In this document: in pieces, positions 39,495-62,914 of the stretch
How the letters are laid out: each line of letters begins with the position of its first letter
Position numbering within the stretch: the first letter of the stretch is position 1
From: Bacteroidota bacterium
Lineage (GTDB): Bacteria; Bacteroidota; Bacteroidia; Bacteroidales; UBA4417
Length of the DNA stretch: 64,000 nucleotides
Assembly: GCA_013376995.1 (NCBI GenBank)
Contig: JACAAZ010000003.1
Coordinates: 1 to 64,000 of the forward strand
Direction of reading: 5' to 3'
The notes under the pieces: model-generated
Databases searched by the model: none
The model's input: the letters and a program-made list of their open reading frames with translations, nothing else
Told to the model about the DNA's origin: nothing
Program-made: the position numbers and the translations under genes

Positions 39495-40796
39495 TTAAAT
39501 AGAATTGGTTGTTCGCTTATCTATAAACCGTTGAGGCTTCCTACCAAATCCTGAGAACTGTTTTTGCTTTATAGTTTCAATTTCTGAAAAGATAATTTTC
39601 GGCATCACGCGAAGCGAAGCATGCAAGTAGGAAATCAGTTTTGAAATCAACTTCTCTGAATTATCCCTGGCCGCTATCCAAATTGCAATATCATCCGTAT
39701 CCAATTCATTTGAAGATACTTCAAGGACATAATCAATGATATTGCTGTTCCCATTCAGTATTTCATAAATCACCGATGGATAGATGGATGTGCCTTTAAA
39801 CTTGATTATTTGTTTTTTTCTTCCAAGGATTGGTGAAATCCGAATAGAGCTTCTTCCACAGTTGCAGGGTGAATCGTATATAGCACAAATATCTCCTGTC
39901 CTGTAGCGAACCAGTGGCATTCCTTCCACACCTAATGTAGTAATAGTTAATTCACCCCTATCTCCTATTCCTACCGGGCGTCCATCATCATCAAGTACCT
40001 CAGCAATCAATAACTCAGGATGCAAGTGACCTCCAGCTCCATGCCTGCATTCAGTAAAGGCAGTTTGCATTTCGGTTGAAGCATAGGTTGAGAATAGTTC
40101 AATGTTCCATAGATCCTTGATGCGCTTACCTATGGTGTTGTATTCAAAGCTTTCATTTCGAACATTTTCCCCAATACAAATGGCACGTTTTACGGGAGAA
40201 TCAGCTAAACAAATCTTGTTATCGAGTGCAAATTCAATGAGGTTTAGGATAAAGGATGGAACTACTACCAATGATGTAGATTTTACCCTAGAAATAGTCT
40301 CCCATTGCATGGATGGAGCTCCGGGACCGGTACGGACAACACCAGCTTTGAGCCTGAGAGCTCCCAGATAATAGGCCATTCCTGCCATGAACTGCTTGTC
40401 CAGTGTAAGTGCTAACTGGAATATATCTTTTGATGATGCACCTGCACAATGAAATGACAAATACTCATTATATGCCAACCTCTGTACATCATTTTTCGTT
40501 AAAGCAATAGTAACCGGAGTTCCCAGTGTCCCTGATGTAGTTGTATATTCAGTAACCTTTTGCCGGGGGACACAAAGAAAATCCATATTATGAATCTGAA
40601 GATCTTCTTTTGAAGTTGTTGGAATTCTTTCAAGCTCATCAAGAGTGGAAATCTTCTCCGCTTTAATATCATTATCTTTAAATATAGCAGAATAATAAGG
40701 TGAATGTTGATCCACATAATTTAACAACTGCTTCAACTTAATTTCTTGGAGGGATTTAATCTCCCTGCTACTTAGTTTATCGATGGCCAACATCAT
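39495..40796 (-). CDS. PaaK-like AMP-forming acyl-CoA/ACP ligase (aryl-polyene operon)
   Basis: 433 aa adenylate-forming enzyme resembling phenylacetate-CoA ligase. TTTSGTLGTPVTIALT is the ATP loop, FSTYASTEMQTAF the adenine-contact motif, YRTGDICAIYD the ribose-binding Asp, and CNCGRSSIRI a Cys pair seen in PaaK relatives. The C-terminal lid begins GRKKQIIKFKGTSIYP. As the last gene of the operon that starts with the tyrosine ammonia-lyase, it probably activates the aromatic starter (4-coumarate or a derivative) for loading on an ACP. Such a ligase is a standard part of aryl-polyene clusters. Substrate is inferred from context. Confidence 0.85.
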   Translation of the reverse strand: MMLAIDKLSSREIKSLQEIKLKQLLNYVDQHSPYYSAIFKDNDIKAEKISTLDELERIPTTSKEDLQIHNMDFLCVPRQKVTEYTTTSGTLGTPVTIALTKNDVQRLAYNEYLSFHCAGASSKDIFQLALTLDKQFMAGMAYYLGALRLKAGVVRTGPGAPSMQWETISRVKSTSLVVVPSFILNLIEFALDNKICLADSPVKRAICIGENVRNESFEYNTIGKRIKDLWNIELFSTYASTEMQTAFTECRHGAGGHLHPELLIAEVLDDDGRPVGIGDRGELTITTLGVEGMPLVRYRTGDICAIYDSPCNCGRSSIRISPILGRKKQIIKFKGTSIYPSVIYEILNGNSNIIDYVLEVSSNELDTDDIAIWIAARDNSEKLISKLISYLHASLRVMPKIIFSEIETIKQKQFSGFGRKPQRFIDKRTTNSI

Positions 40797-40864
40797 GATG
40801 CTTACATTTCGTCAAACTTAATCTGAATAACAGATTTAAAAAATTATTTATCCAATTCCAACCT

Positions 40865-42514
40865 TTACATTTTAGATTTTGATATACGATCATTTATCCT
40901 CTTCACTTCTTTCTTGTTGGGAATGATACATTTGAGTGCTTTCCAGTAATTCCTTGTTGCATTAGCATTCTGACCAAGATTAAAATAATAATCACCTATG
41001 AGTTCATATGTTTCATAAGAATTCGGGTTTAACATTTGCAAGCTATCAAGACTCTCTGCCTTAATGGAATGAGCGTACATCCTGGATCTCAACAGTTTGT
41101 ATAGTGAATATCTTACAACTTCATTATCAATTGCTCTCTTATCAGATAAAACATTCAGAGAGTCAATTCTATAGATGCTTACTCCTTTTCCAGGAAGTCC
41201 TGAAGCGAAAACCTTTTTCAGATCATACGCAACATACTCACCTAATTGATAGGGTGAGGTAGATATCCAAAACATTCTTTTCCTGGGGTTAAATACTATA
41301 GAATGATGTGCAATAAGTTGATTAATAGCATCTTCATTCCCTAATCCAATATCAGCATTCTTGATTCCACGCATATTTCTAAGGATGTTAACTACATCGG
41401 GCACATCCAGATCTTTCCTGTTTTCCAACAATTCGTGCATTCTCCTGTACCTGTATCCGGAGGCAGTTTCGAATCGTTGCGAAAGGGATTGAGGCATATA
41501 TCCAAACTGCCTGCTCTGAAAATGATTAGTAGAAATGATTTGATCTGAACAAGGATCAAAAACTACCTGTGAACCAGGTCTCTTTTCAATGATAATAGCT
41601 CTATTATCCAAAGCAGATCCAATCAGAAACAATTCAGAAACAAAAACATCAAAATGAGAAGCTATAGCTACAGCTTCGTTGATATTTGAAGCATATTGAA
41701 GTATTTGCCTTGCTACTATTGCAACCGGAGTTGCGGCTTTCACTTTCACATCAGAGTTAGCGGCATTTATTGTAACAGTGAGCCCCATTTCATTCATACC
41801 TGAAACTGCTCCAATCATCCCTCCCCAAGTTATAAATGCATGTCGGTATCCAGAATCAGGGCGAACGAACTCAACGATCTTCTCTTTTGAAAAATCGTCT
41901 CCTACATAAAAATCGAAATTTCTGCCTATCAGTAAATCCCCATCCACAGTCCTGGAATTCCATACGCCAAATGATGTACATCCCACCATACCAAGATTAT
42001 TAAGCATATGACCCATATCATGCGCGCCATGATAATTCAAAATACGCTGATAGTTTGATGCTATATTGGTAAACTTGGATGAAGCTGAAAATGAAACCCC
42101 ATAAATCTCCTTTTTATTCTCTTCAGGAATTGAGTGATACAGATTATAATCAAAAACGCCGATAACATATTTCAAAAATTTCAAATATGAATCAGAAGGT
42201 ACTAGGTGATGAATTTGTTCTACAAAGGCTTTTTCCTGCCTGAAAACCAGGTCTTTTGTCAATTGTCCTGCTATCAATCCTCTCTCGAATGGTTTACCTT
42301 CAACATACAAGGTCCACAATCCAGGACGTTCTTCTCTTAACCAGTTGGGGCCAATATGGGTTGTTTTGTTATCAATTGAATCTATTTTGAATGTCTTGAA
42401 ATCATACTCTTTAAATTCATTTTTGAAAAGTGCATTGATGTATATAAAGAATCCAAGTATTGATAAGAATATCAACAAGATAAGAATTCCAACTACCTTC
42501 AGTACTCTTTTCAT
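40865..42514 (-). CDS. C45-family Ntn hydrolase/acyltransferase with membrane anchor
   Basis: 549 aa. A membrane anchor (about 7-28) is followed by an Ntn-type domain whose probable nucleophile is Cys179 in MVGCTSFGVWN, followed by DGDLLIGRNFDFYVGDD and GGMIGAVSGMNEMGLTVTIN. This is the peptidase C45 (acyl-CoA:6-APA acyltransferase-like) fold; in that family the Cys becomes N-terminal after self-cleavage. The last 60 residues (YETYELIGDYYFNLGQNANATRNY region) look TPR-like. It may transfer or remove acyl groups of the pigment lipid in the periplasm. Four bases separate it from the upstream gene. Confidence 0.8.
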   Translation of the reverse strand: MKRVLKVVGILILLIFLSILGFFIYINALFKNEFKEYDFKTFKIDSIDNKTTHIGPNWLREERPGLWTLYVEGKPFERGLIAGQLTKDLVFRQEKAFVEQIHHLVPSDSYLKFLKYVIGVFDYNLYHSIPEENKKEIYGVSFSASSKFTNIASNYQRILNYHGAHDMGHMLNNLGMVGCTSFGVWNSRTVDGDLLIGRNFDFYVGDDFSKEKIVEFVRPDSGYRHAFITWGGMIGAVSGMNEMGLTVTINAANSDVKVKAATPVAIVARQILQYASNINEAVAIASHFDVFVSELFLIGSALDNRAIIIEKRPGSQVVFDPCSDQIISTNHFQSRQFGYMPQSLSQRFETASGYRYRRMHELLENRKDLDVPDVVNILRNMRGIKNADIGLGNEDAINQLIAHHSIVFNPRKRMFWISTSPYQLGEYVAYDLKKVFASGLPGKGVSIYRIDSLNVLSDKRAIDNEVVRYSLYKLLRSRMYAHSIKAESLDSLQMLNPNSYETYELIGDYYFNLGQNANATRNYWKALKCIIPNKKEVKRINDRISKSKM

Positions 42515-42517
42515 TAA

Positions 42518-44026
42518 TTAGTGCTTACGAATTTTTTCAAGTAGAGAATCTATTCCGATGAGTTCCCCACAGGTAACCAATGAACTGACTGTAACTCCCA
42601 ATATACCGTGAACATTGAGATTTTGGCCAGTAAGAAGCAAATTGGGGATTTTAGTCCTGGCAGGTATGAATGTCTTAAGTGGTTCATTACAATCCCGCAA
42701 TACACCGTAGAGAGAACCGCTGGGAGTGCCTGTATAATCCCGAAACGAAAGTGGCGTGAGCGTGTGGTAGGCTTTTACTGAACTTCTGAATCCGGGATTA
42801 GTCCTTTCAACAAGTTCAAAAAGCAGTTGTGCTTTATTTTCCTTGAATTCTTCATAGTCGTCTCCCCTGGATCCGGGAGAAGACACAGTGTTATGAGAAT
42901 TAACCCAGGGTTCCAGTTCTGAAAATTGCATATAGCTCATAATAGAAGCTGATTGTGAATATCCATCCTTACCTGAACCCACAAACAATGCATAATTCTC
43001 AGGCCAATTCTTGAGTTGGTAATTTGTTCCCTGCCATACTTTTGAAGGATCTGAATAATAATAAACATTGTGATTGAGATAAGGAAAACTCTCTTTCTTG
43101 AAGGCAACATTCAGAATAAAGGCGCCTATGCTGTTTTCTAATTCTGTAATCCGGTTTATGTAAGCCTTGCGAAACACATCTGTCTGAGTCATTGCAATAG
43201 TATTCGAAGGATGCAGATCAGAAATAAAGAATTTGCCTTCAAATTCGCGCTTATCAGTTGTTTCCACGTTAGTGACCTGGCCATTATACGCAACAATACG
43301 GCTCACTTCAGCTGAAGTAATTATTGTTCCACCATTAGCCTTGATGATATCAGAAAGCAAAGTTGCGATCTGCTTACCTCCTTCAACACAGCGCCATGCA
43401 CTTTCAATATAGCTGTTAAAGATAAGTGCATGAATATAGAAAGGTGTCTTTTCACCAACCCCTGCATAAAGTAAATTATTCGCTGCAAATACATTCTGAA
43501 GGATAGGATCCGAAACGAATGAATTAATTGTCTCCCTGGCATTTATTTCCAACATTTCCAATTTATCTAGGAAGTTGCCACTTTCAAGGTTATAAAGGGG
43601 AAACCGGCGGCAGATTCCCTTCATATAATCACAGAAACCTTCTATACCTGCTCTTTCTTTTGGAAATGCACCAGATAGAGTGTCTATAAAGCCTTCATAT
43701 GTTTGGGCATATGCGAATTTGTTTTTATTGTTGCCAAACCTGATTATATCAAATCCATCGATATCTAACCTACTCAGCTTCAATGCAGGCAATAATCCAA
43801 CATATGAGAAAATCCTATGCAATGTTTGCCCTGAATCCAATCCACCAATATAATGTACACCAGTTTCAAACATGGCACCATCCCTATAATAGCTTTGCAG
43901 GCATCCGCCAACCTGGGCATTTTTTTCAAGAAGCAACACATTATAGCCGTTCTTACTCAGGATAGCACTACTCAATAGTCCACCTAATCCACTACCAATT
44001 ACGACTATATCAAAGCGGTTATCCAT
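42518..44026 (-). CDS. Phytoene-desaturase-like FAD/NAD(P) oxidoreductase
   Basis: 502 aa. The N-terminal dinucleotide motif is VVIGSGLGGLLSSAILSKNG, followed by VLLLEKNAQVGGCLQSY; the C-terminal FAD motif is NLLLTGQNLNVHGILGVTVS. The fold is that of CrtI/retinol saturase-type enzymes. In flexirubin and related clusters such an oxidase is thought to act on the polyene or its precursor. It overlaps the upstream fusion gene by 8 bp. Substrate not known. Confidence 0.85.
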   Translation of the reverse strand: MDNRFDIVVIGSGLGGLLSSAILSKNGYNVLLLEKNAQVGGCLQSYYRDGAMFETGVHYIGGLDSGQTLHRIFSYVGLLPALKLSRLDIDGFDIIRFGNNKNKFAYAQTYEGFIDTLSGAFPKERAGIEGFCDYMKGICRRFPLYNLESGNFLDKLEMLEINARETINSFVSDPILQNVFAANNLLYAGVGEKTPFYIHALIFNSYIESAWRCVEGGKQIATLLSDIIKANGGTIITSAEVSRIVAYNGQVTNVETTDKREFEGKFFISDLHPSNTIAMTQTDVFRKAYINRITELENSIGAFILNVAFKKESFPYLNHNVYYYSDPSKVWQGTNYQLKNWPENYALFVGSGKDGYSQSASIMSYMQFSELEPWVNSHNTVSSPGSRGDDYEEFKENKAQLLFELVERTNPGFRSSVKAYHTLTPLSFRDYTGTPSGSLYGVLRDCNEPLKTFIPARTKIPNLLLTGQNLNVHGILGVTVSSLVTCGELIGIDSLLEKIRKH

Positions 44027-47000
44027 TGGCTGGTTTATTGAACACTAACAAAACATTTGAGGAAATACTTTTCTCTTGAACAATAGTTGAGCTGAGCTTC
44101 AGGTCAGTGGCATATTTGATAAGATCCGCGCTTGAAAAGAAATCTATTTCATTCTGAGTCTTATTGAACTTGATCAATTTGGTTGAGAATAATTCGCTGA
44201 TGCGGGTAATAAGGTGCTTGTTGCCCGGTCTCTTATCAGCATCACGAACGATGATTGTTCCGCCAGGATTAAGAGATTGCACTGCCCTACTAAAAACCAA
44301 ATTTCGCCTGCTTTCTTCAAAGTAATGCAAAACATCTCCAAAGATTATACAATCGCTTGATTCCCAATTATAATCTAATAAGTTCCCTGTTTTAAAATCA
44401 AGATTTTGAGGTTTCCCAAATCCGTTGAATGCGACTGAAATTTTCTCTGAATCATAGTCAATTCCTAGTATTTTCCTATCCGGAGAAAGGCCTGCCAACA
44501 TATACGTCATGAAGCCATAACCACAGCCGGCATCAACGATAGTACCTTTCATTGGAACTAAGGTATGAAATGCAATATAGTTCTGTTCGAGCCTCATTTT
44601 AATCTTCATATACCATTCAAGGACAGGGCCTTTAAACAAATAGTTATCGATGATTTTCCTGCGGTAATTGACTGGATTCCTGAGCTCTTCATTTATCAAA
44701 GCAATATGATACCTGAAAAGAGATTGAACTTTTTTAGTAACCTCCTGGTATGTTAACCCAAACGCCGGATCCATGTATTTAATTCTTGTCAGAATCTTTA
44801 AGGTTATGGTTGAATCCCGTAAAACGAAACTTCCTTTTGCAATTGCATCAGCTGTGCCATTAATAACAACAGGTATAATGTCAAGTTTCAATTGATGAGC
44901 AAGGAAAAATGCACCCTTGTGAAAATGCCCGATACTTCCATCTTGCGAGCGTGTTCCTTCAGGGAAGATAGCAATTGAATAGCCCTGGCTGATCTTTTCC
45001 TTCAGTGCTTCAAGACTGGGTTCAACACCTTCAAAAATAGGATAGTAACCTGCCAAACGAACGACAAAACCGAATAATGGTGAATGCCAGACCCATTTGT
45101 TGGTAAGCAAAAGAATCCTCGGATTCAACATGATCATAGCTAAAATATCTATTACTGACTGGTGATTAGCTACATAAATGCATGGAGAATTAAAATCAGG
45201 CTTTTCTTCAAATATGATCCTCTTCTTTATATTTCCCATTATATAGATCTGAGCCCAGGCTACCTTACTAATCATCCAATTGAAAAGCAATTGTGATTTT
45301 TTCCTGAAGAAAGGATTTATAACGAGCAGCAAAACACCTAGTATTGTCAAGAATATACATCCCAGGATAAAAAAGCCAAATGCTATTACCGATTTGATGA
45401 ATGTCATCATGCTGATCGGCGCCTGCCCCCTGCTTACAGGTTTTGTTATAAAAAGCTTGAACAGTAATGGTTCCAGCACCTGAGAAGTTAATAGTACGGA
45501 AGTAATACCGATCAGTGATACTGCACCTATGGATTGTAAGGCCGGATGCTTTGCTATCAGCATAACTGCAAATCCAAAAAGAGTGGTTAAACCGGATAAG
45601 AGTATGCTTATTCTTATAACCGGCATATGGGTTGACCTGGTCTTGTAACTATTCAGGAGTCCGTCCATTGTAAAAATGCAATAGTCATCCCCCAATCCGA
45701 AAATGAAGGTTGAAAGGATGATATTCACAATGTTGAATGGAATATGGAACAATCCCATCAGTCCCAGTATCCATATCCATGATACAACCATTGGAATGAA
45801 AGCTGTAAGAGCTAGTTCAATCCTACCATAAGTAAGAAGCAAGGCAAAAAAGACCAGCAAGGCTGAAAAGATGGCTATGAAGTTAAAATCATCATTAATG
45901 ACTGAAGTTAGTTGCGTAGCCAGGAATTTGCTATCCATCACCGTATTACCACTCAATCCTGATATGATCCTCTCAATCTTTGGACTATCAGATGTTTTGC
46001 CATAAACCACAGAAACCACTGTTGTTATACCGGGAGAGATTGTAATTGCCTCCCGCCCAACAGAATTAGCAAGCATTTGAAAATCAGATGAATCTATCGA
46101 ACTTTTTTTGGTATTCATTTGAAGAATAAAACCCTCAAATGCATCTTTTGTGAAGCCATACTTTTCTGCGGATTTCTCCAGGTCTGCCCTAATGGATGCC
46201 TTCTTTTCGGGAGTAAAGTATGCATTCCATCTCCGGATCCGGTATTCCTGTTCCTGAAGTGAAGGCAAAAAGTCTGAAACACCTGTATACCTCAAAGGGA
46301 TTCCAGCCAGGTTCATTGAATCAACAGATTTCTTTATCCTATTGGCAGACTTTAGAGCTTCGTCAAAATTCAGTCCCGAGGAAATTATATAAACCGGTGA
46401 ATTCAGAGTATCTGAGGATCGTAGAAACTTTTCATTCTTCTTCAAATCAGAAGACATGTAGTTCAAATGCATCAGGTCTGTGTCGAACTCAATGTATTTA
46501 CAAAAGTAAAGTAAGACTGGTGTCATCAGTATGACTGCACCAACTATATACTTATTGGCATCCAGTTGAAAAGCCCCGAACTTTCCCAGCCAGCGATCAA
46601 CAATGGTTGTCCTGGCGTTTGCAGGCTGATCACCAATCAGGTGTGGTAAAAATATTAAAGAGAACAGAACAGCTCCGATAAGGCCAAAAGATCCAAGTAA
46701 GCCAAAATCATGAAGCAATTCAGATTTAACAAACAAAAGGCAAACAAAACCTCCAATGGTAGTCACACTTCCAATGGTCATAGGTTCAACCATATCGGAA
46801 ATCACATGACGGATATCAGAATCATATAGTCTATGTGTAAGAATATGCAATGGATAGTTTATGGCAATTCCCAATAAGACTGACGTTGAACCAATTGCGA
46901 TTAATGATATTCCCGGTTTGATAAGTGAAATGCAGGCAAGTGCGAATAGAATTCCAAACACAACCGGGGAGAACATTAATAAAGGTGTCCTTTTCTTACG

Positions 47001-47873: not shown

Positions 47874-47877
47874 CCTC

Positions 47878-49038
47878 TTACCTTTTGTTCTTTGAATATA
47901 ATATGAGAATAAAATATGCCATCGCACCGGAGAGAATGGAAGCTGCAAAAGACAACGTTATACTTCCGATCAGGTATTGTTCAATAAAGGGCGTTACTGA
48001 TGAAAGGTTCCGGAAGGTGTCCAGGGAAGGCAGAACAGGGTTTTTGAACCAAAATGATCCAAAGACCAGGCTAAAGTAAATGATCAATGGAATGAATGGT
48101 GGGATGCTAATGTTGACAAAAAGGATAACCAATGCTTTATTTAACTTGAAGAGGAACGCTAAACCAATGGCTATAAGTAGTTGAAAACCCCAGACAGGGA
48201 ATATTCCCATAAATACGCCAACAGAGACTGATACAGAACGAAGAAGAATCGACTCTTTGGGATTAAACAGTAGCTCTTTCCATGATCGATCCCTGAAATA
48301 CATAACAGGCCTGTACCAGGTCAATGCCAGGAATACCAGCACCGTGTTCAGCAAGCTTATCCGCACGAAATCCTGGAATGGCCGGAAATGAGAAACTCGT
48401 TCGTCCTCATCAAAATAATGAACAGTAACAGGGACCTGGCTTACTTTTATTCCTTTCCAGGCCAATCTTACGATTATTTCAATTTCAAATTCGAACCTGG
48501 GAGTATAGAACTTCATCTTTTCCATTGGTGCCAAAGGATAGAGCCGAAAACCAGATTGAGTATCATTGTGTGATATACCGGTTTCCACCCAGAACCAGAA
48601 ATTTGAGAATTTCCTGCCAAAATTGCTTTTTACTGGCACAGAGGATTGCTCCATATTTCGCTCCCCTATTATCAATGCATCCCCCAGTTCATTTAATTTT
48701 TCAGCAAACCGGATTATTTCTGAAGGTTGATGTTGTCCATCCGTATCCATAGATACAGCATACCTGAATCCCTTTTGCATGGCATATGCAAAGCCAGTCT
48801 TCAAGGCATTTCCCTTACCCTTGTTTAGAGGTATTCGTACAACATGAACCGAAGGGAATTCGCTCAATATCCTGACAGTATCATCGGTTGATCCATCATC
48901 AACAACGATCAGGTCATCTGTAAGCTGCAAAACACCCCTGATAACTCCGGCCAGCGTTTTACAGTTATTGTAGGTAGGCAGTATAACACAAACCTGGTAA
49001 TCCCTGAGCAAATTTTGTTTTGTTAAACTGCCTGGCAT
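47878..49038 (-). CDS. GT2 glycosyltransferase fused to DUF2062
   Basis: 386 aa from the ATG at 49038, which overlaps the upstream gene by 16 bp. The first 230 residues are a GT-A family 2 domain (VCVILPTYNNCKTLAGVI, LIVVDDGSTDDT, VSMDTDGQHQPSEII), like dolichyl-phosphate mannose synthases. The C-terminal about 130 residues are DUF2062, with several membrane helices. It may glycosylate the pigment or its lipid carrier at the inner membrane. GT2 proteins occur in most aryl-polyene clusters. Confidence 0.88.
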   Translation of the reverse strand: MPGSLTKQNLLRDYQVCVILPTYNNCKTLAGVIRGVLQLTDDLIVVDDGSTDDTVRILSEFPSVHVVRIPLNKGKGNALKTGFAYAMQKGFRYAVSMDTDGQHQPSEIIRFAEKLNELGDALIIGERNMEQSSVPVKSNFGRKFSNFWFWVETGISHNDTQSGFRLYPLAPMEKMKFYTPRFEFEIEIIVRLAWKGIKVSQVPVTVHYFDEDERVSHFRPFQDFVRISLLNTVLVFLALTWYRPVMYFRDRSWKELLFNPKESILLRSVSVSVGVFMGIFPVWGFQLLIAIGLAFLFKLNKALVILFVNISIPPFIPLIIYFSLVFGSFWFKNPVLPSLDTFRNLSSVTPFIEQYLIGSITLSFAASILSGAMAYFILILYSKNKR

Positions 49039-49400: not shown

Positions 49401-49403
49401 GAA

Positions 49404-50676: not shown

Positions 50677-50677
50677 T

Positions 50678-53818: not shown

Positions 53819-53831
53819 GGCATACTGCGTT

Positions 53832-54446: not shown

Positions 54447-54454
54447 CGTGCAAG

Positions 54455-55519
54455 CTATTTTTTACAAACCAGTAAGGTATGGCATAATCCAATTCCATCG
54501 TGAATCGATTCAATATCCAACCCTGCTTTTTTCACCAGTTGATAAAATGTATCGGAATGGTACATCTGACTGTTCCCATTGGCAATACATGTAAAATAAA
54601 GTGAGGTCATCTGCAGTGAGAATGCTGATGCCTTGAATCGCTGCCGGTCCCACAAAGGCTCAAGAATACATACCCTGGATGAACTTTGCATGGATTGAGA
54701 ACATCTCTCAAGAATAGAAATGATCTGTTCTTCTGAGAAGCAATCCAGGAATTGACTCATCCAGATAATGTCATAGCCCTGAGGCACTTGTTGAGATTCA
54801 TCAAGGATATTAGCCTGTATAAACTGCATACGTTTATCAAGCCCTTTATTCTTAGCCATTTCCTTAGCCATATTCAATTGCCCCGGGAGATCCATGATTC
54901 CAACCTCAACTTCAGAGGAATACTCCAAAGCCTGAAATGCAAATTTTCCTGTATTACCGCCTATATCAAGAATCCTTGAAGGTTTATGTTCGAATAGCAG
55001 AGGTAAAACTGTACCAAAAGAATTATCAGAAAAGTAATGATCGAATTTGAACCAGCTATCCCTCACTTTGGGAGGAAGTTCAGCAAGTGCCTCATAAACA
55101 GTGTTCCATTTCCCAAAGTGCTTTAACCCTTCAGGTTTGCCATTACGGATTGAATCCTCCAGATCAAACAGGCCGTTGTAACAAACATCATTGATAAAAT
55201 CAGTATTCGCTTCGGTTAAGGGATCATTATTGAAAAAACTGGCTGTACGTGTGTTATAGTACTTTCCCTCTTTCGTAAAGAGCAAACCTGCTGCCAGTCC
55301 GGCTTCGCAGAGCACCCTGGCTCCATAGGTACTCAAACCGCATTCTGATTCAATCTCAGAGAGTTCCATTCCTTGTCTTTGCCGCTTTTCAATTGCCGTA
55401 AGGATTCCAAGGTTTCGCAATGCCCTCGAAGCCTGGAATACAACCGGAGCAAATGCAAGCCATTGGGCTTGTTCCATTGCTTCTAATGCTGTCAGTTTAT
55501 CTTCATTATATTCTATCAT
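54455..55519 (-). CDS. SAM-dependent O-methyltransferase-like protein
   Basis: 354 aa from the ATG at 55519, one base after the ketosynthase stop (the frame also opens at 55561 inside that gene). An N-terminal winged-helix dimerisation region (about 20-90) precedes the methyltransferase fold: ILDIGGNTGKFAFQALEY, VGIMDLPGQLNMAKEMA, YDIIWMSQFLDCFSEEQI. It resembles hydroxyindole/acetylserotonin O-methyltransferases. It probably methylates the phenolic head or a ring position of the pigment. Such methylation is known in some flexirubins and xanthomonadins. Confidence 0.85.
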   Translation of the reverse strand: MIEYNEDKLTALEAMEQAQWLAFAPVVFQASRALRNLGILTAIEKRQRQGMELSEIESECGLSTYGARVLCEAGLAAGLLFTKEGKYYNTRTASFFNNDPLTEANTDFINDVCYNGLFDLEDSIRNGKPEGLKHFGKWNTVYEALAELPPKVRDSWFKFDHYFSDNSFGTVLPLLFEHKPSRILDIGGNTGKFAFQALEYSSEVEVGIMDLPGQLNMAKEMAKNKGLDKRMQFIQANILDESQQVPQGYDIIWMSQFLDCFSEEQIISILERCSQSMQSSSRVCILEPLWDRQRFKASAFSLQMTSLYFTCIANGNSQMYHSDTFYQLVKKAGLDIESIHDGIGLCHTLLVCKK

Positions 55520-55520
55520 A

Positions 55521-56660
55521 CTATGATTTTGAAAAGCCAATGGCCGCATTGCATCCGCCAAAGCCAGCCATGGTTTTAATGCAGTTTTTGAAAGGCTTCC
55601 TGATATGTTCTGAACTAATATTCAATTCGAAACTGGTCCCGGGATTACTGTATCCTCTGGAGCCAATGAAAACCTCATTTTGAAGACAGTTTACAGCGAT
55701 TATGCTTTCCAGCAATCCTGCACATCCGAGTGTGTGACCAAAATATGCTTTCAGGCTGTGAATATGACTTTTATCCAGTTTACTATTATTCAACGCCTTA
55801 GACTCCATTTCATCATTAAATACGGTCCCTGTTCCATGTGCTGATATAAAATCGATATCCGAAGAAACTATACCAGCCTGCTTAAGTGTTTGATCAATCG
55901 CCATCGACATTTCAAGTCCGGTACGTGAAGGGCCGGAAATATGGTTGGCATCATTGGTAATTGCACCTCCTATAATTGAAGTGACCTTGAATCCTTTATT
56001 AGTCTGTGACTGGTTTGATATTACCATGGCTGCACCGGCTTCCCCAAGATTTATACCATCCCTGTCACGATCGAATGGTTTGCAATGCCCGGGGCTAAGA
56101 GCTTTCAAAGCATTAAACCCTTCAAGAACAAAGGCATTCACCGTATCAGCACCAACTACAATTACAGTATCGAACCTGCCGGAATCAATCAATCCACAGG
56201 CAATAATCTGCGCTGAAATACCAGATATACATGCATTTGATACAACTATCGGCTTATTCGGATTCTGAAAATGGCTACTGATCTTACAAGCCGAATTGTA
56301 GAGGGAGAGTGATTTTTGATCCCTGATCCCTTCTTCCAGAAGCTCAATATTCCCTTTGGTTGTAGCGATAACGAATAAAGTCCGTGATGAACGTGGGTCA
56401 ATTTGAGAATCTTCAAGAACATTCCTGATCGGATAATACAATAGCTTCTCAAACCTGGTAAGAGTTGCAAAAAAAGGATCATCCAGGATACCTTCCAATG
56501 CTCCTGTTTCAAAATATGAAGCATAAACATCGAAATCAAAGTTTGACCGGGATATGCTTTTAAGGCCTGATTCGCCTTTGAGAATTCTCACAAAATTTTC
56601 ATCCGTATTTATGCCGAGCGGAGATAAAATGGAATCGGCTATGATATATATCCCGCTCAT
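55521..56660 (-). CDS. Beta-ketoacyl-ACP synthase 2 (aryl-polyene operon)
   Basis: 379 aa from the ATG at 56660, overlapping the thioesterase stop as ATGA. Cys144 in VVSNACISGISA, His275 in SAHGTGTVFND and His309 in FGHTLGCAG complete the active site, and GFGGCNAAIGFS ends the fold. Among the three active ketosynthases it is the most divergent in its N-terminal part. Role: condensation, perhaps first or priming step. Confidence 0.9.
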   Translation of the reverse strand: MSGIYIIADSILSPLGINTDENFVRILKGESGLKSISRSNFDFDVYASYFETGALEGILDDPFFATLTRFEKLLYYPIRNVLEDSQIDPRSSRTLFVIATTKGNIELLEEGIRDQKSLSLYNSACKISSHFQNPNKPIVVSNACISGISAQIIACGLIDSGRFDTVIVVGADTVNAFVLEGFNALKALSPGHCKPFDRDRDGINLGEAGAAMVISNQSQTNKGFKVTSIIGGAITNDANHISGPSRTGLEMSMAIDQTLKQAGIVSSDIDFISAHGTGTVFNDEMESKALNNSKLDKSHIHSLKAYFGHTLGCAGLLESIIAVNCLQNEVFIGSRGYSNPGTSFELNISSEHIRKPFKNCIKTMAGFGGCNAAIGFSKS

Positions 56661-57082
56661 ACGTCCAACCCCCATTTCCCTTTCCAATCGGTATAAAAAT
56701 CAGGATTTGCGAGTTGAAGCTGACGATTTACACGATCAAGAAACACCTGGACGGTTCTTCCAGTGGCAACCACTTTACCGGAAGTTCCATGTGTTATGGT
56801 ATAATCGATAATGATCTTGGCAGCCTCCGTGTTTAGAAAGATGGCTTCTATGACCGCTGTATCACCATATGTAAGCGGCAATTTATACTCACAGTGAGCG
56901 CTTATTATAGGAGCAACATATCCCTGATCATACATTTCGAGGTAAGCAAGCCCATACTTGCTTAACAAGGCTTCCCTGGCATCTTCAAAATACTTAAGGT
57001 AATGGCCATGCCAAACAATAGTAAGCGAATCCACTTCACTAAACCTGACCCTGATCTTAATTTTATCTGAGAGCTGAACCAT
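56657..57082 (-). CDS. YbgC/4HBT-type acyl thioesterase (aryl-polyene operon)
   Basis: 141 aa hotdog protein from the ATG at 57082. The motif VRFSEVDSLTIVWHGHYLKYFEDAREALL region (Asp/Trp-His-Gly, about residues 12-40) is typical of acyl-CoA or acyl-ACP thioesterases. It probably releases the finished chain or corrects stalled ACPs. Coupled by overlap to the following ketosynthase. Confidence 0.88.
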   Translation of the reverse strand: MVQLSDKIKIRVRFSEVDSLTIVWHGHYLKYFEDAREALLSKYGLAYLEMYDQGYVAPIISAHCEYKLPLTYGDTAVIEAIFLNTEAAKIIIDYTITHGTSGKVVATGRTVQVFLDRVNRQLQLANPDFYTDWKGKWGLDV

Positions 57083-57093
57083 CAATTTTCCAG

Positions 57094-57723
57094 TTACTTC
57101 GAAAGGTATTTCTTTTCGAGTTTAAGTTGAATATCACTTTTCAGAATGCTATAAATGGAGGCTGCCCAAAAATTCCTGATTCCAAAGCCACCTGGTTTGC
57201 CATATACTTTCTCGGATAGGATTAAATTCCCTTCCGGCATTGAAAAATAAACGAGATAATAAGTCCCAAGTTTCCCTGGTTTATCAAGCGATTCCGCAAT
57301 AAAGACCAAACCAATCCCGGTTTTATCTTTCAGGTTATACTGCCTGACAATGGATTGTATGGTATTTTTATCCAATGGCACTATTTCACTGGATGAATAG
57401 GCTTTAAAATAAGATGTATCAATTTTCTGGTTCAATTCATCCACTGTTCTAAGCTCAACCTTAACGTCAGATTTGTATAGGGCTTTCCCAATATCATATT
57501 TCTGTTGCTCAACGACCATCAATGTATTGATTGCTAAAAAATATTTATCTCTCATTTCGGTTGATGAAGCACCAATCAATACACCTTTTGCTTTTGTGAA
57601 GTCAATGCCAAAGAATGTGACGGCAGACCCTCGTTTTAAAGCATCAGAAACGGTTTGTGCTTTAGCGGCTACAATGATCTGAATGCAGATGGCAACCAAA
57701 AGAAATTTGAACATACCCCTCAT
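57094..57723 (-). CDS. Exported protein of unknown function 2 (aryl-polyene operon)
   Basis: 209 aa with a signal peptide (1-22, MRGMFKFLLVAICIQIIVAA) and a mixed alpha/beta body (TFFGIDFTKAKGVLIGASS, TGIGLVFIAESLDKPGKLGT, YYLVYFSMPEGNLILSEKV). I do not recognise the family. It is placed between dehydratase and thioesterase genes and has no lipoprotein Cys. Presumably periplasmic, perhaps in pigment transfer. Confidence 0.75.
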   Translation of the reverse strand: MRGMFKFLLVAICIQIIVAAKAQTVSDALKRGSAVTFFGIDFTKAKGVLIGASSTEMRDKYFLAINTLMVVEQQKYDIGKALYKSDVKVELRTVDELNQKIDTSYFKAYSSSEIVPLDKNTIQSIVRQYNLKDKTGIGLVFIAESLDKPGKLGTYYLVYFSMPEGNLILSEKVYGKPGGFGIRNFWAASIYSILKSDIQLKLEKKYLSK

Positions 57724-57742
57724 TACTTTTACTGTTTAAAAA

Positions 57743-58189
57743 TTAGTCATTCTTAATGAATATCCTCATTTCGCAGCTGGCAACCTTTTCAGTGCCAATC
57801 AACACTTCAGTTTCTGCAATAGTGATATCAAGTACCTGGTTAACCAGCATTACTGAAACAGTTAATGAAGCCCCTATTTCAGGCATTTGAAAAATCTGCA
57901 AATTCCTGATGGCTGCAATATAGCCAATTTTCACTTCAGTCTCGCTGGCTATGGCTTTGAAACCTGCACCAGCAGCAATTGTTTGAGCCATTGCTTCAAT
58001 GATGCCTCCTTCTGTTAACCTCCCGTCTGATACAAGCAAATTATCGGGCTTTACTTCGAAACTCGCAACGATTTTATTCTCGCTGGCTTCCAGTAGTTTA
58101 TCTATAAATACAAAAGGCGGCCTTTGCGGGATATAGGCAAGGACTTCAGCATTGCTACCGGATATTCTGTCAGGCTTTCCAGAAGTCAT
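57743..58189 (-). CDS. 3-hydroxyacyl-ACP dehydratase (ApeP-like hotdog)
   Basis: 148 aa. The start VLAYIPQRPPFVFIDKLL and the active-site helix region LTEGGIIEAMAQTIAAGAG match the dehydratases of aryl-polyene clusters. It would form each double bond after ketoreduction. Start overlaps the acyltransferase gene by 20 bp. Confidence 0.88.
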   Translation of the reverse strand: MTSGKPDRISGSNAEVLAYIPQRPPFVFIDKLLEASENKIVASFEVKPDNLLVSDGRLTEGGIIEAMAQTIAAGAGFKAIASETEVKIGYIAAIRNLQIFQMPEIGASLTVSVMLVNQVLDITIAETEVLIGTEKVASCEMRIFIKND

Positions 58190-59054
58190 AATAATTGAAC
58201 CATTGTAGTGGAAATTGTCTCAGTCTGTTTTCGAGTTCAGCAACAAAGGAGCCTGACAGCTTTTTTAATTCATCATCGCGATCACCATCGAACTGCATGA
58301 TTTCTGTGGCTGAAAAATGATAGGAATTTGCAGATTCTTTAAAGGAAAAGACGAAGCTAACAGGAGCTTGCAACATAATTATCATCCTGAAAATACTATA
58401 GGGAAATTCAGCATTTTTACCCATGAATGGGATTTGCAGACTTCTCTTACTTCCAGGCAACAGCCTGTCCGCATGAATACACACCAACTCTTTGTTTTCG
58501 AGAGCTGTTTTAATTTCAAAAAGATGAGACATATCTTCCTTAATAGGAATTACCCTGGTCTTGCGTTTTCCTGTGACCCTATCAAGATATTCCTTTATTG
58601 CTTGATATTCTGCATCATACATAACAATGCTTACAGCAGCATCAATCCTGTCTAGGTAGTGGCCAGCGATTTCCCAATTCCCAACATGAGCACTTAACAG
58701 TATTCCACCTTTTCCCTGGTTAACCATTTTGTGCAGGTTCACTTCCCCTTCGAAATCGAATTTGAAGTTGGTTTTGATTCCTGCCATGGCAGCTATTTTA
58801 TCCAGCAAGCATTGACCGAATACAAAGTAATTCAAGTAAACCGAATAACTACTCTTCAGTTTCCCAAATCCAATCTGCCGAAAATACTGGTAAATAGCCC
58901 GGTTTGAATTCCGGGAGGTAAGCAGATAATAAAATGCAACAAAAACGAGCAGAGAGTAAGCAACTCTCAGACCCGAGAAACGAAGTAAAAAGACAAATAT
59001 CTGGTATCCAGTTTTTTTCCCTTTGGATTTTCCTGTCCAGTCCTGCTCAGCCAT
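58170..59054 (-). CDS. LpxL/HtrB-like lipid acyltransferase
   Basis: 294 aa. One or two N-terminal membrane segments, then the family's catalytic motif GGILLSAHVGNWEIAGHYL (His-x4-Asp/Glu) and HADRLLPGSKRSLQIPFMG. Relatives add acyl chains to lipid A; in aryl-polyene clusters the homologue probably adds the polyene or a fatty acid to the lipid carrier. It overlaps the dehydratase gene and follows the second ACP by 9 bp. Confidence 0.9.
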   Translation of the reverse strand: MAEQDWTGKSKGKKTGYQIFVFLLRFSGLRVAYSLLVFVAFYYLLTSRNSNRAIYQYFRQIGFGKLKSSYSVYLNYFVFGQCLLDKIAAMAGIKTNFKFDFEGEVNLHKMVNQGKGGILLSAHVGNWEIAGHYLDRIDAAVSIVMYDAEYQAIKEYLDRVTGKRKTRVIPIKEDMSHLFEIKTALENKELVCIHADRLLPGSKRSLQIPFMGKNAEFPYSIFRMIIMLQAPVSFVFSFKESANSYHFSATEIMQFDGDRDDELKKLSGSFVAELENRLRQFPLQWFNYYDFWKA

Positions 59055-59063: not shown

Positions 59064-59330
59064 TTAGTTTGCATTGGGTTCTTCCGGAGCGTTGATCCTG
59101 GTTTCTACATAGTTATAAAAATCATCAAAGGTGGAGATATTCTGAAAATCTCCCTGTTTTACTTTAAATCCAAAGTTGCTTTCAATTACTACAACCAGGT
59201 CTACAAAGTCAAGACTATCAAGTTGAAGCGTATCACGCAGATTCGCATCGGGCACAATTAAACTCTCATCTATTTCGAATTCCTCAACAAAAAAAGGAAT
59301 GATCTTTTCTGCTATTTCTTGTTTTGTCAT
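59064..59330 (-). CDS. Acyl carrier protein 2 (aryl-polyene operon)
   Basis: 88 aa. The prosthetic-group Ser39 is in LQLDSLDFVDLVVVIE. It differs from ACP 1 in both ends, so the two probably serve different partners, for example starter loading against chain extension. Confidence 0.93.
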   Translation of the reverse strand: MTKQEIAEKIIPFFVEEFEIDESLIVPDANLRDTLQLDSLDFVDLVVVIESNFGFKVKQGDFQNISTFDDFYNYVETRINAPEEPNAN

Positions 59331-59343: not shown

Positions 59344-60573
59344 TTAATTACTTTTCCATTTTCTGACGATCAGTGTTGAGTTAGTTCCTCCAAAACCAAA
59401 TGAATTTGAAAGAAATACATCAATATCTTTCTCCACAGTTATTGGAGTGATATTTAACAAAGCTGAATCATCGTCCGGGGTATCAAAGTTAATATTTGGA
59501 GCGATAAAACCATGCTTCATCATTAACATTGAATAAACAATTTCACTGGCACCAGCCATCCAGCATTCATGGCCCGTCATTGACTTGGTAGACGAAATAA
59601 AAGGCCTGGATCCGCCCAGGACATTAGAGAGTGCCCTGGCTTCAGATGCATCTCCGGCTGGTGTAGAGGTGGCATGTGCATTTACATAATCAATCTCAGC
59701 TGCCTTGATCCCTGACTGCTTAAGAGCCATTTCCAATGCTTTCTGAGGGCCTTCAATGGTAGGGTTCGATATATGTGATCCGTTTGAAGAGAAACCATAT
59801 CCAATTACTTCGCCCAGGATGGTTGCACCTCTTTTAAGAGCATGTTCCATACTTTCCAGAATTACTGTTGCGGCTCCACCACTGGGTACCAGGCCATCGC
59901 GGTCCTTATCGAAGGGGCGGGAAGCCTTGTGTGGCTCATCTTCACGGATGGAAAAGGCACCAAGCGCATCAAAGTTACCCATTGAATAAATATTTATTTC
60001 CTGGGCACCTCCGCAAATTATGCAATCCTGGTAACCATGCTTGATAAAAAGGAAACCCAGTCCAATGGAGTGAGATCCGCTTGCACATGCGGCACTAATC
60101 GTAAAATTGACTCCCTTTAACCTGAAAATGGTAGAAAGGTTCATTGTAACAGTTGAATTCATTGTCTGGAAAACAGAGCCTGAACCCACCATGATAGTAT
60201 CACCCTTTTCGCGAATGAGGTCATTCGCTGCAATAACAGGTTCGGCAGAACTATCATTACCAAACAGAATACCTACATCATGACTATCAAGAAAATCCTG
60301 GTCAATTCCAGCAACTCTTAGAGCTTCAGCAGTTGACATATAGGCAAATTCACCCTGTTCAGGCAGCATAATCCTGGAACGCCTGTCTAGAATTCCTTTC
60401 AGATTGGGAGATTCTACAAATCCTGTCAAACCACTCCTGTATCCATATTTTTTACGTTCAGGATCCAGGATAATCCCAGACTTTCCTTTGTATAAAGAAT
60501 CAGCTGTTTCGGAAAGGTCTTTCCCAATTGAAGAATAAATTCCAATGCCGGTGATAACAACTCTGTTCAGCAT
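59344..60573 (-). CDS. Beta-ketoacyl-ACP synthase 3 (FabF-like, aryl-polyene operon)
   Basis: 409 aa from the ATG at 60573 (MLNRVVITGIG); the frame is open to 60687 inside the upstream gene, but those 38 residues lack any conserved feature. Catalytic Cys163 in SAACASGSHSIG, His300 in NAHATSTPAGD and His335 in MTGHECWMAG are present; SNSFGFGGTNSTLIV closes the fold. It is the most canonical FabF-type enzyme of the operon and likely the main condensing enzyme. Confidence 0.94.
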   Translation of the reverse strand: MLNRVVITGIGIYSSIGKDLSETADSLYKGKSGIILDPERKKYGYRSGLTGFVESPNLKGILDRRSRIMLPEQGEFAYMSTAEALRVAGIDQDFLDSHDVGILFGNDSSAEPVIAANDLIREKGDTIMVGSGSVFQTMNSTVTMNLSTIFRLKGVNFTISAACASGSHSIGLGFLFIKHGYQDCIICGGAQEINIYSMGNFDALGAFSIREDEPHKASRPFDKDRDGLVPSGGAATVILESMEHALKRGATILGEVIGYGFSSNGSHISNPTIEGPQKALEMALKQSGIKAAEIDYVNAHATSTPAGDASEARALSNVLGGSRPFISSTKSMTGHECWMAGASEIVYSMLMMKHGFIAPNINFDTPDDDSALLNITPITVEKDIDVFLSNSFGFGGTNSTLIVRKWKSN

Positions 60574-60583
60574 AAAACAATGG

Positions 60584-61309
60584 TTAATATAGTCCTCCGT
60601 TAATGGAAATGGTCTGCCCTGTGATATAGGATGCTTTATCAGAAGCAATGAATGAGGCCAAATCAGCAACTTCCTCTGCAGTTCCAAAACGTTGCATTGG
60701 AATTACACCTTTTAACTCCTTCTCATCCAACTCTTTGGTCATATCAGTCCTGATAAAGCCGGGAGCAATCGAGTTAACAGTAATACCCCTCCTTGCTACT
60801 TCCTGGGCCAGCACTTTAGTTGCCCCGATAATTCCTGCTTTTGCAGCTGAATAATTCACCTGTCCGGGCAGGCCTCTTAAACCTGACAAAGAAACAATGT
60901 TGATGATCCTTCCATATTTCCGGGTGATCATTTTATCCAGTACGACCTTAGTAACATAAAAGAAGCTGTTCAGGTTCGTATCGATAACATTTTCCCATTG
61001 ATTATCCGTCATCCACATCATTAAAACATCATCCCTAATCCCTGCATTGTTTACAAGAATCTCAATTTCCTCATCAGGATTATTAAGCGTCCAGTTTCCC
61101 AAAACTTCCTTAATTTCAGTCTTATCAGCAACGTCAAATTTAAGGAGAACAGCTTTTCGGCCAAAAGCTTCTATTGCAGACTGTGTGGCCAGAGCTTCCG
61201 CTTGATTTGAATTATAATTTAAGAGGATGTTATATCCCAAAGCAGCAAGTTTTAAAGCAATAGCTTTTCCAATTCCTCTTGAACTACCTGTCACCAAAGC
61301 ATATTTCAT
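60584..61309 (-). CDS. 3-oxoacyl-ACP reductase (FabG-like)
   Basis: 241 aa short-chain dehydrogenase. NADPH motif LVTGSSRGIGKAIALKLA, NNAG motif LVNNAGIRDDVLM, catalytic YSAAKAG with Ser upstream, and the end YITGQTISINGGLY. It reduces the 3-oxo intermediate in each cycle. It is the second gene of the operon, 66 bp after the ammonia-lyase, and 10 bp before a ketosynthase. Confidence 0.94.
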   Translation of the reverse strand: MKYALVTGSSRGIGKAIALKLAALGYNILLNYNSNQAEALATQSAIEAFGRKAVLLKFDVADKTEIKEVLGNWTLNNPDEEIEILVNNAGIRDDVLMMWMTDNQWENVIDTNLNSFFYVTKVVLDKMITRKYGRIINIVSLSGLRGLPGQVNYSAAKAGIIGATKVLAQEVARRGITVNSIAPGFIRTDMTKELDEKELKGVIPMQRFGTAEEVADLASFIASDKASYITGQTISINGGLY

Positions 61310-61375
61310 ATTCCTTACATTAGAACGCCGGTCGATAATTCAGTAATCGACTCTCAATGGCAATTAACAAAAAAA

Positions 61376-62914
61376 TCAGTTCAAAATTTCCTGCCGCGTG
61401 TTTTTAAGATAATCTTTTATGGCCTCCATTTCCTGGCTGGTAATCCTATCACTTCCAATGACCGGAAACAGGTTTCGCAATTCCTTGTAAACATTGTTAC
61501 TATATGAAGACAATTTACCTTGAAGATCAAGGGCATCAACTGCCTGAATCACAGCTATAGCTTCTATTGCCAGTACCTCAAATGTATTATCAATTACCCG
61601 GGCTGCAATAGTTGCAGCATTAAAGCCCATACTAACAATATCCTGGTTATCATTGTTGCATGAAATGCTGTGAACATATGATGATGCTGAGAGAGTTTGA
61701 TTTTCAGCCGTGGTGGAAGTAGCTGTAAACTGCATTCCCTGTAAACCGAAATTAAGCCCTAGAACTGATAAATTGATAAATGAAGGCAGTTTCTGATTTA
61801 ACCGGTTATTCAACAGATAATTCAACTGACGCTCTGAAAGCATTGTAGCCCTAGTCATTACGAGTTTCAACTTATCCATCTCCAGGGAGATATAATCACC
61901 ATGGAAATTCCCTCCATGGTAAATATTACTGCTTTCAATATCTGTAATCGGATTATCGTTTGAAGAATTTAATTCATCTTCAATAATCCTGTTTCCGTTC
62001 AGAAGTGTGTCGTAAATGGGACCCAGTATTTGGGGGATGCATCTGAGCGAATAATATTCCTGGACTTTTTCCCTGAAAAACTCATCAGATTGGTCCTTTT
62101 CCCAGAAATTATTGCGTGAGCGGACCAGTGGAGAGTCTTCCAATATTTTTCTTGCTGCAGCAGCAATGATCATTTGGCCCTGATGTTTCTTTACAGCATT
62201 AAGTTCAACTGAATAATGATCATTAAAAGCTTCCATCAATTCATTGATCATTACTGAGAATGCCAGGTTCCATCCGAGAGCTGTAAATGCAAATTCCAGG
62301 TTAATGGCAGCAAGGCCTGTCATAGCGGAAGTTCCATTCATCATTGCAAGGCCTTCCCTCAACACAAGCTTTTTAGCTGTCAACCCACAGAGTTTATAAG
62401 CTTCTTCTGCTTGAATGATATTCCCATTAAAATAGCAGATACCCTCTCCTATCACAACGGCAGCTAAGTGGGCCAGCTGCACAAGATCGCCACTTGCACC
62501 TACACCTCCGTGAAGAGGAATGCAGGGAACGATACCTGAGTTGAACATAGAGACCATATGGAAGATCAACTCCTTGCTGACGGCAGAATGCCCTCTAACA
62601 AGAGAATTCAAGCGCGCCAGAAAGACGGCTTTACATTCAGCCGGCCCTAAATAATGGGGAAACCCGGTGTGATGACTCCTTATCAGGTTATACTGAAGAT
62701 CAAGCAATTGCTGCTCCTCAATGCTATATTGAGCCATAGGGCCCAAACCAGTATTAATTCCATATATATTGTACCTGGAATTTACAGCTGAAAGAAAATT
62801 AAAGCTTTTTTCGACCTTCTCAATTGTCAGATCAGATACACCAACTTTATCGTCGCCAAAGCAGAGTTTAAATAATTGTTTAGCAGATAAACTATAGCCA
62901 TCAAGCAGCACCAT
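61376..62914 (-). CDS. Tyrosine/histidine ammonia-lyase family, probable tyrosine ammonia-lyase
   Basis: 512 aa from the ATG at 62914. The self-forming MIO cofactor triad Ala-Ser-Gly is at 140-142 in GGVGASGDLVQLAH; the catalytic Tyr is in YGINTGLGPMAQYS. The selectivity pair is Ser-His in YNLIRSHHTGF, as in tyrosine ammonia-lyases of flexirubin-producing Bacteroidota. Further family segments: YYSLRCIPQILGP, NDNPITDIES, YHGGNFHGDYISLEMDK and NNDNQDIVSMG. It would turn tyrosine into 4-coumarate, the polyene starter. Histidine activity is not excluded by sequence alone, but the cluster context argues for tyrosine. First gene of the 23-gene operon. Confidence 0.87.
   Translation of the reverse strand: MVLLDGYSLSAKQLFKLCFGDDKVGVSDLTIEKVEKSFNFLSAVNSRYNIYGINTGLGPMAQYSIEEQQLLDLQYNLIRSHHTGFPHYLGPAECKAVFLARLNSLVRGHSAVSKELIFHMVSMFNSGIVPCIPLHGGVGASGDLVQLAHLAAVVIGEGICYFNGNIIQAEEAYKLCGLTAKKLVLREGLAMMNGTSAMTGLAAINLEFAFTALGWNLAFSVMINELMEAFNDHYSVELNAVKKHQGQMIIAAAARKILEDSPLVRSRNNFWEKDQSDEFFREKVQEYYSLRCIPQILGPIYDTLLNGNRIIEDELNSSNDNPITDIESSNIYHGGNFHGDYISLEMDKLKLVMTRATMLSERQLNYLLNNRLNQKLPSFINLSVLGLNFGLQGMQFTATSTTAENQTLSASSYVHSISCNNDNQDIVSMGFNAATIAARVIDNTFEVLAIEAIAVIQAVDALDLQGKLSSYSNNVYKELRNLFPVIGSDRITSQEMEAIKDYLKNTRQEILN

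Follow-up and report, generated by a model that had tools for sequence, protein, structure and literature searches.

A 23-gene operon at positions 39495-62914 of a 64,000-nucleotide stretch (the window; positions 1 to 64,000 of contig JACAAZ010000003.1, assembly GCA_013376995.1, from a Bacteroidota bacterium of the order Bacteroidales) is an flx cluster, belonging to the known flexirubin polyene family, and not a cluster of a new type. The pigment of the source genome is probably not a standard flexirubin, because the genome search revealed no DarA/DarB pathway by which the resorcinol half of that molecule could be made. The reading that we favor, with moderate confidence, is that the flx operon is intact but lacks the dialkylresorcinol (DAR) module, and that a coumarate-primed aryl polyene is put on a membrane lipid instead. 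A preliminary description of the DNA had suggested that the product may be distinct from both flexirubin and the classic aryl polyenes (APEs); this stands insofar as a standard flexirubin is improbable, but the cluster type itself is flx by its curated protein matches and gene order.

Flexirubin family membership and the search for dar genes

The operon was assigned to the flx family because FlxA, FlxB, FlxY, LolA2, and LolB2 each passed the curated NCBIfam flexirubin equivalog model and because 21 of the 23 genes lie in the same order as in the cluster of genome G025, in which the methyltransferase gene and the gene for a 209-residue protein have no counterpart (genomes carry G numbers here, the source genome being G000). 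The order of the shared genes is the same in G025, in G182, and in the congeners G204, G208, and G212; it differs in Chitinophaga tropicalis, G012, and G099. APE clusters started by 4-hydroxybenzoate are not known to contain an ammonia-lyase, and here FlxA heads the operon. The cluster comparison proposed in the preliminary description separates the operon from such APEs, but not from flexirubin clusters. FlxA contains the ASGD motif, and its specificity residues, SH at motif 1 and Gln at motif 2, are the same as those of the C. tropicalis homolog; a histidine-ammonia-lyase-like protein of the source genome has Glu at motif 2, unlike FlxA. The meaning of these motifs is taken from PMC3992019. 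On contig C34 of the source genome, two adjoining histidine-ammonia-lyase-like genes lie next to a gene that by eye resembles one for a histidyl-tRNA synthetase.

The source genome (5.05 Mb in 43 contigs, 96.66% complete) was searched for DarA and DarB with the gene pairs from the G025 and G182 clusters and a third pair from G099. In G025 and G182, a FabH-like gene of 377 codons and a gene of 300-307 codons lie between the LpxL-type acyltransferase and dehydratase genes; the FabH-like proteins of G182 and G099 match the NCBIfam DarB model at 654 and 635 bits (cut-off 550), and DarA, which matches no model, was assigned by its position beside DarB. No open reading frame (ORF) of the operon matches either protein, in agreement with the preliminary description, and no dar remnant was found at the site that corresponds to dar in G025 and G182: exactly where those clusters hold darB-darA, the operon's genes for dehydratase 1 and the LpxL-type acyltransferase overlap by 20 nt. 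Absence from the window, which the preliminary description had offered as evidence, proves nothing by itself, because in Chitinophaga pinensis darBA (Cpin_6850-6851) lies apart from flx (Cpin_1853-1877) (PMC3992019). The genome-wide search that it had also proposed returned a best DarB score of 41.5 bits, at a FabH gene, whereas the DarB matches counted in this work score 499-694; DarA was not found with a profile that finds it in 39 of 40 DarB-bearing genomes, nor was the dar-linked BtrH/DUF4872 protein found by profile search. A complete flexirubin pathway would have both DarA and DarB in the genome; the BtrH/DUF4872 protein would accompany them by a linkage found in this analysis and not by a published criterion.

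Two further FabH-like proteins of the source genome, L002 and L004, were considered as a hidden DarB and rejected: they score 228.8 and 71.3 on the general ketoacyl synthase III model (cut-off 249), no DarB model is listed for either, and both are absent from the DarB searches. ORFs of G017 first taken as DarA/DarB candidates appeared DnaJ-like and thiolase-like by eye and were dropped; a DarB match of 518.7 bits was later found on another contig of that genome.

The operon consists of 23 consecutive minus-strand ORFs, from the start of flxA at 62914 to the end of flxY at 39495, with intergenic gaps of -104 to +68 nt and all frames open. The layout given in the preliminary description (23 genes in one direction, small gaps or overlaps, an ammonia-lyase at the start) is thereby confirmed, and Pfam and NCBIfam matched 21 of the 23 proteins, with functions as described, leaving two without any match. 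The matched set includes four ketosynthase-type proteins, two carrier proteins, and two dehydratase-like proteins. The features are as follows.

63015-63042, minus strand: terminator-like hairpin followed by TTTC, between the upstream gene for a 197-residue protein and flxA; by eye
62933-62940, minus strand: TATTTTTG, possible operon promoter box before flxA; by eye, fits the -7 box TAnnTTTG
61376-62914, minus strand: flxA, tyrosine ammonia-lyase (starter formation); NCBIfam NF053541, 707.9 bits, cut-off 700; Pfam Lyase_aromatic; ASGD, SH, and Gln motifs
60584-61309, minus strand: flxB, short-chain dehydrogenase/reductase (SDR) ketoreductase; NCBIfam NF053542, 386 bits, cut-off 340
59344-60687, minus strand: ketosynthase 1; Pfam ketoacyl-synt N and C; domain from residue 41, true start may be downstream
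59064-59330, minus strand: acyl carrier protein 1; Pfam PP-binding
58170-59054, minus strand: LpxL-type acyltransferase, likened by function to ApeD; Pfam Lip_A_acyltrans
57743-58189, minus strand: dehydratase 1; Pfam ApeP-like, 20.4 bits, below cut-off 27; NCBIfam FabZ weak; assigned also by position
57094-57723, minus strand: 209-residue protein with signal-peptide-like N terminus (by eye); no Pfam or NCBIfam match; homolog in G212, G204, and G208
56657-57085, minus strand: hot-dog thioesterase; Pfam 4HBT_2
55521-56687, minus strand: ketosynthase 2; Pfam ketoacyl-synt
54455-55561, minus strand: FlxJ-family methyltransferase; NCBIfam NF053543, 494.7 bits, below cut-off 560; Pfam Methyltransf_2
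53832-54446, minus strand: 204-residue protein conserved in flx clusters, ketosynthase-like fragment (by eye); no Pfam or NCBIfam match; homologs at the same place
53561-53818, minus strand: acyl carrier protein 2; Pfam PP-binding
52371-53561, minus strand: ketosynthase 3; Pfam
51409-52401, minus strand: ketosynthase-like, perhaps chain-length-factor-like; Pfam Ketoacyl-synt_2
50678-51421, minus strand: polysaccharide deacetylase; Pfam Polysacc_deac_1
49981-50676, minus strand: LolA2, periplasmic carrier; NCBIfam NF053544, 192.6 bits, cut-off 125
49404-50003, minus strand: LolB2; NCBIfam NF053540, 88.6 bits, cut-off 60
49023-49400, minus strand: dehydratase 2; Pfam FabA
47878-49092, minus strand: glycosyltransferase 2 with DUF2062; Pfam
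44019-47948, minus strand: 1309-residue fusion of MMPL/RND exporter, glycerolipid acyltransferase, and methyltransferase; Pfam MMPL, Acyltransferase, Methyltransf_25
42518-44026, minus strand: FAD oxidoreductase of the phytoene-desaturase kind; Pfam; NCBIfam carotenoid models far below cut-off
40865-42514, minus strand: C45/AAT-type acyltransferase or hydrolase; NCBIfam NF040521, 190.7 bits, cut-off 85
39495-40796, minus strand: flxY, 4-coumarate-CoA ligase; NCBIfam NF053551, 611 bits, cut-off 520

The pattern TAnnTTTG is the Bacteroidota -7 box consensus. A promoter and terminator scan of 39300-58000, with the flxA end outside it, gave counts close to those of shuffles and was not used. The 197-residue protein upstream of flxA (63086-63679) has no Pfam or NCBIfam match; in the congeners G204, G208, and G212 its homolog lies beyond the opposite end of the cluster, adjoining or near flxY.

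Clusters with and without the dar module

FlxY passed its cut-off in 13 of 198 genomes of the phylum, 6 of 16 of the family (all in one genus), and 64 of 295 of the order. DarB was sought in two sets of genomes: in the first (13 genomes), 10 were over the cut-off, G017 reached 518.7 bits, and none was found in G000 and G118; in the second (69 genomes), 33 had a match that reached E 1e-60, and in 27 of these it exceeded the cut-off. Since G000 and G118 are common to both sets, these are 80 distinct FlxY-bearing genomes, with DarB in 44 (above the cut-off in 37 and at 499-550 bits in the other 7) and without it in 36, of which 35 are at least 90% complete. The flx arrangement without dar is thus common, not unique. 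Within the source genus, DarB, DarA, and BtrH were found in none of the six FlxY-bearing genomes, the five congeners being 95-100% complete. In genus g196, in which the flx clusters are similar, G406 and G491 have all three proteins and G305 (99% complete) has none. A FlxY tree of the 80 genomes, unrooted and made by a quick method, has 32 of its 77 inner branches starred and G017 on a long branch; it requires 17 or more changes of the DarB label, of which 10 or more are forced by starred branches. One starred set, entirely without dar, comprises the source genome with G204, G207, G208, and G212, and the congener G203 falls elsewhere. Gains and losses of dar are indistinguishable on this tree, because its root was not inferred.

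In G025, G397, G434, and G457, a BtrH_N/DUF4872 protein, an ABC ATPase, and a permease are encoded in the vicinity of DarA and DarB, and the same neighborhood occurs in C. tropicalis (G505) and Crocinitomix catalasitica (G506); the Pfam names of the BtrH and ABC proteins come from those of G025. Among the 76 genomes covered by both searches (four DarB-bearing genomes were left out), a profile built from three of the 39 positives found DarA in 39 of 40 DarB-bearing and 0 of 36 DarB-less genomes, and one built from four of the 39 positives found BtrH in 39 of 40 and 7 of 36, respectively (Fisher p 2.6e-13). In tree-independent pairs defined by starred branches, BtrH went with DarB in 7.5 of 10 pairs on average, against it in 0, and showed no difference in 2.5 (sign test, median p 0.008, range 0.004-0.06). 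A Cys, a His, and an Asp are invariant in all 17 BtrH homologs compared and could form a papain-like triad, and BtrH_N is described as belonging to an acyl carrier protein:aminoglycoside acyltransferase (PMC10318531). We infer that the BtrH-type protein forms the ester of flexirubin, joining polyene to resorcinol, a step for which a 2014 paper proposed FlxW; its co-variation with DarB names it as a candidate for this enzyme. In the DarB-less genomes G251, G312, G411, and G495, the neighborhood of flxY includes a BtrH-type protein together with an ABC permease and a carrier protein, which perhaps serve another acceptor.

Gene content was compared where the stretches fetched took in the core of the cluster, in 24 of the 80 genomes (7 DarB-bearing, 17 not). 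The deacetylase gene and the C45 gene are each present in 6 of the 7 DarB-bearing clusters and in 9 of the 17 DarB-less clusters; because they are usual in flx clusters with DarB, they do not point away from flexirubin, contrary to what the preliminary description implied, and on the same counts the C45 protein is not favored as a dar-specific acyltransferase. The FlxJ-type methyltransferase, on a count that ignores kinship, occurs in 1 of 7 DarB-bearing clusters (G376) versus 13 of 17 DarB-less clusters. This enrichment may mark a real difference of the dar-less clusters; no gene seen in these 24 genomes marks all of them, the methyltransferase coming nearest. An O-methylated product, also suggested earlier, is not implied, as the enzyme is of the FlxJ family and the flexirubin methyl is on the ring; C. 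pinensis, which has dar, makes a methylated flexirubin (PMC3992019).

Several other genes were noted at these sites. Near the usual FlxJ site, G318, G406, G434, G305, G491, G232, and G389 have a gene for a 455-461-residue protein without a FlxJ match, which in G318, G406, and G434 appears by eye to be B12-binding and radical S-adenosylmethionine (SAM)-like and perhaps provides an alternative methylation. Between the FAD oxidoreductase gene and flxY, G203, G313, G396, and G411 have a radical SAM-like gene (424-435 residues, by eye), and G484 and G496 a gene of the same size and place; an esterase-like gene comes next in G203, G313, and G396, where no C45 gene was seen.

Proposed product and alternatives

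In the pathway that we favor, FlxA would convert tyrosine to 4-coumarate and FlxY would activate it, after which the type II set of ketosynthases, reductase, and dehydratases would extend it on the carrier proteins to a 4-hydroxyphenyl polyene acid, following the scheme proposed for flexirubin, and the FlxJ-type enzyme would methylate the ring. In standard producers, DarA, DarB, the BtrH-type acyltransferase, and the ABC transporter constitute a further module that makes the resorcinol, onto which, we propose, the BtrH protein transfers the carrier-bound polyene. In the absence of DAR and BtrH, another acceptor would be needed. A membrane glycerolipid or glycolipid is the most likely one; the polyene would be put onto it by the LpxL-type acyltransferase and the glycosyltransferase together with the acyltransferase domain of the exporter fusion, and moved to the outer membrane by MMPL, LolA2, and LolB2, as proposed for the E. 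coli aryl polyenes; the lipid attachment and export envisaged in the preliminary description are a sensible guess.

Several observations weigh against this reading or the comparisons behind it. We know of no pigment from the source organism. The genes for lipid attachment are also present in DarB-bearing clusters and so do not show a changed acceptor; the FlxJ model, by far the best match for the methyltransferase, is reached at only 494.7 bits against a cut-off of 560; and no lipobox cysteine was seen on inspection after the signal peptide of LolB2. Six of the 33 DarB matches of the second set, and that of G017, lie under the curated cut-off, and the E 1e-60 threshold is not specific alone: Caulobacter vibrioides and Bacteroides ihuae, 2 of 14 control genomes, are likewise admitted with scores that miss the curated value. 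In B. ihuae, FlxY also passes its own cut-off. The DarA match in G460 and the BtrH match in G295 are partial, and the BtrH copy of G368 carries an internal stop. G376 has a DarB-like protein (499 bits, under the cut-off) without DarA or BtrH, and seven DarB-less genomes (G239, G251, G312, G359, G411, G475, and G495) have BtrH; given these exceptions, the tie between DarB and BtrH is not strict.

That the operon is a decaying flexirubin cluster, on its way out after the loss of dar, would agree with dar not having been found, but seems to us hardly probable at all: besides the open frames, dN/dS (the ratio of nonsynonymous to synonymous change) between the congeners G204 and G212 lies in the range 0.02-0.18 for all genes that could be compared, 21 of 23 (Nei-Gojobori; several dS values exceed 1, so the estimates are rough), and gene order is kept in G204, G208, and G212 across the fetched stretches, which exclude flxA and the SDR gene (the contig of G207 is short). 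The flx genes are thus maintained without dar, under purifying selection in congeners. It is very improbable, too, that the organism is a standard flexirubin producer whose dar genes fall in the missing part of a draft assembly, even though the assembly is incomplete and C. pinensis keeps dar apart from flx; the five other FlxY-bearing congeners likewise lack DarB, DarA, and BtrH, and the three module genes are absent together, with no remnant at the site used in G025 and G182.

The resorcinol might also be a different one. Type III polyketide synthases can make alkylresorcinols, and an operon of the source genome (L003, contig C1, about 442-446 kb) encodes such an enzyme with a UbiA-type protein, a methyltransferase, and an FAD monooxygenase; the nearest match to its synthase, at 51%, is in G457. 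Esterification of the polyene to a product of this operon is nevertheless quite improbable, as the synthase was not found in any of the 15 other genus members searched (of which three are only 64-74% complete), although five have FlxY; as, among 44 genomes searched, the six others with a match all have DarB; and as the source genome has no BtrH-type acyltransferase. Its presence in 1 of 16 genus genomes, the source's own, led us to reject it as a shared substitute for dar. A polyene acid that remains unattached, or that is linked to a sugar or protein and not to a lipid, with the acyltransferases serving another step, is unlikely but deserves more weight, since the acceptors of the cluster's enzymes are all predicted and E. 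coli mutants without the attachment genes still accumulate polyene acids (PMC8253772); in the other direction, with LolA2, LolB2, an MMPL exporter, and two genes that encode acyltransferase domains, the cluster seems equipped for a hydrophobic product destined for the outer membrane.

Returning to the polyene lipid, the pigment of the sampled dar-less relatives is probably flexirubin-like, with an attachment partner other than the resorcinol. More tentatively, with the chances a little short of even, we propose that flexirubin is the product of two modules, a self-sufficient coumarate-primed polyene-lipid pathway, widespread in Bacteroidota without dar, and a detachable resorcinol module often gained or lost. 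The source genome, on its separate branch of the FlxY tree, would have the first module only, and its product would represent a third class of pigment, intermediate between flexirubins and aryl-polyene lipids. Flexirubin-type pigments serve as a taxonomic marker, and genome reports label such clusters "flexirubin"; if 36 of the 80 sampled FlxY-bearing genomes are unable to make the resorcinol half, many of these cluster calls are wrong in kind.

Comparison with known pigment systems

Flexirubin-like arylpolyene clusters are reported in Bacteroides xylanisolvens (PMC12940132) and, as antiSMASH predictions, in groundwater Bacteroidales bins (PMC5383146); flexirubin clusters are reported to be widely diverse in the Flavobacteriaceae (PMC10734526), and one in Dyadobacter to have darA and darB (PMC9606717). 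In the open-access literature, as far as the excerpts extend, we found no statement that flx clusters frequently lack dar genome-wide. The flx cluster of C. pinensis resembles the operon in its ammonia-lyase, 4-coumarate ligase, ketosynthases, dehydratases, reductases, deacetylase, LolA, glycosyltransferase, and exporter; its FlxA makes 4-coumarate from tyrosine, and its FlxY makes 4-coumaroyl-CoA (PMC3992019). It differs in that darBA is encoded elsewhere in the genome, whereas none was found in the source genome.

In F. johnsoniae, darAB lies inside the flexirubin cluster (PMC3992019), lolA2 and lolB2 of this and the other species compared were in every case located in flexirubin-type loci, and LolB2 has a predicted lipoprotein signal, unlike that of the operon (PMC11885536). 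The clusters of G025 and G182, which we call Flavobacterium-type after this species, have the genes common to both arranged as in the operon, all the way from flxY to flxA, but hold darB-darA inside the cluster and have no match to the operon's methyltransferase; that of G025 also contains the BtrH/DUF4872 protein and an ABC transporter, and G182 likewise has BtrH.

The APEs of E. coli and Xenorhabdus start from 4-hydroxybenzoate, with no known ammonia-lyase, and differ from the operon in this respect. They resemble it in fatty acid synthase-like elongation, ApeD- and ApeJ-type transferases, an RND-type exporter, Lol-like carriers, and a lipid-borne polyene (PMC8253772, which also mentions 4-HBA, 4-hydroxybenzoic acid); the operon's counterparts of ApeD, ApeJ, ApeM, and the Lol proteins were matched by annotation and function, not by sequence. 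In E. coli, ApeD and ApeJ are proposed to attach the polyene to a lipid anchor, and ApeM and Lol-like proteins to transport the product (PMC8253772). Arcuflavin of Azoarcus sp. BH72 differs from the product proposed here in its xanthomonadin-type starter and in being a dialkylresorcinol ester, but is likewise an aryl polyene made by similar machinery, and its dar cluster contains BtrH-like and ABC-transporter genes (PMC3949708).

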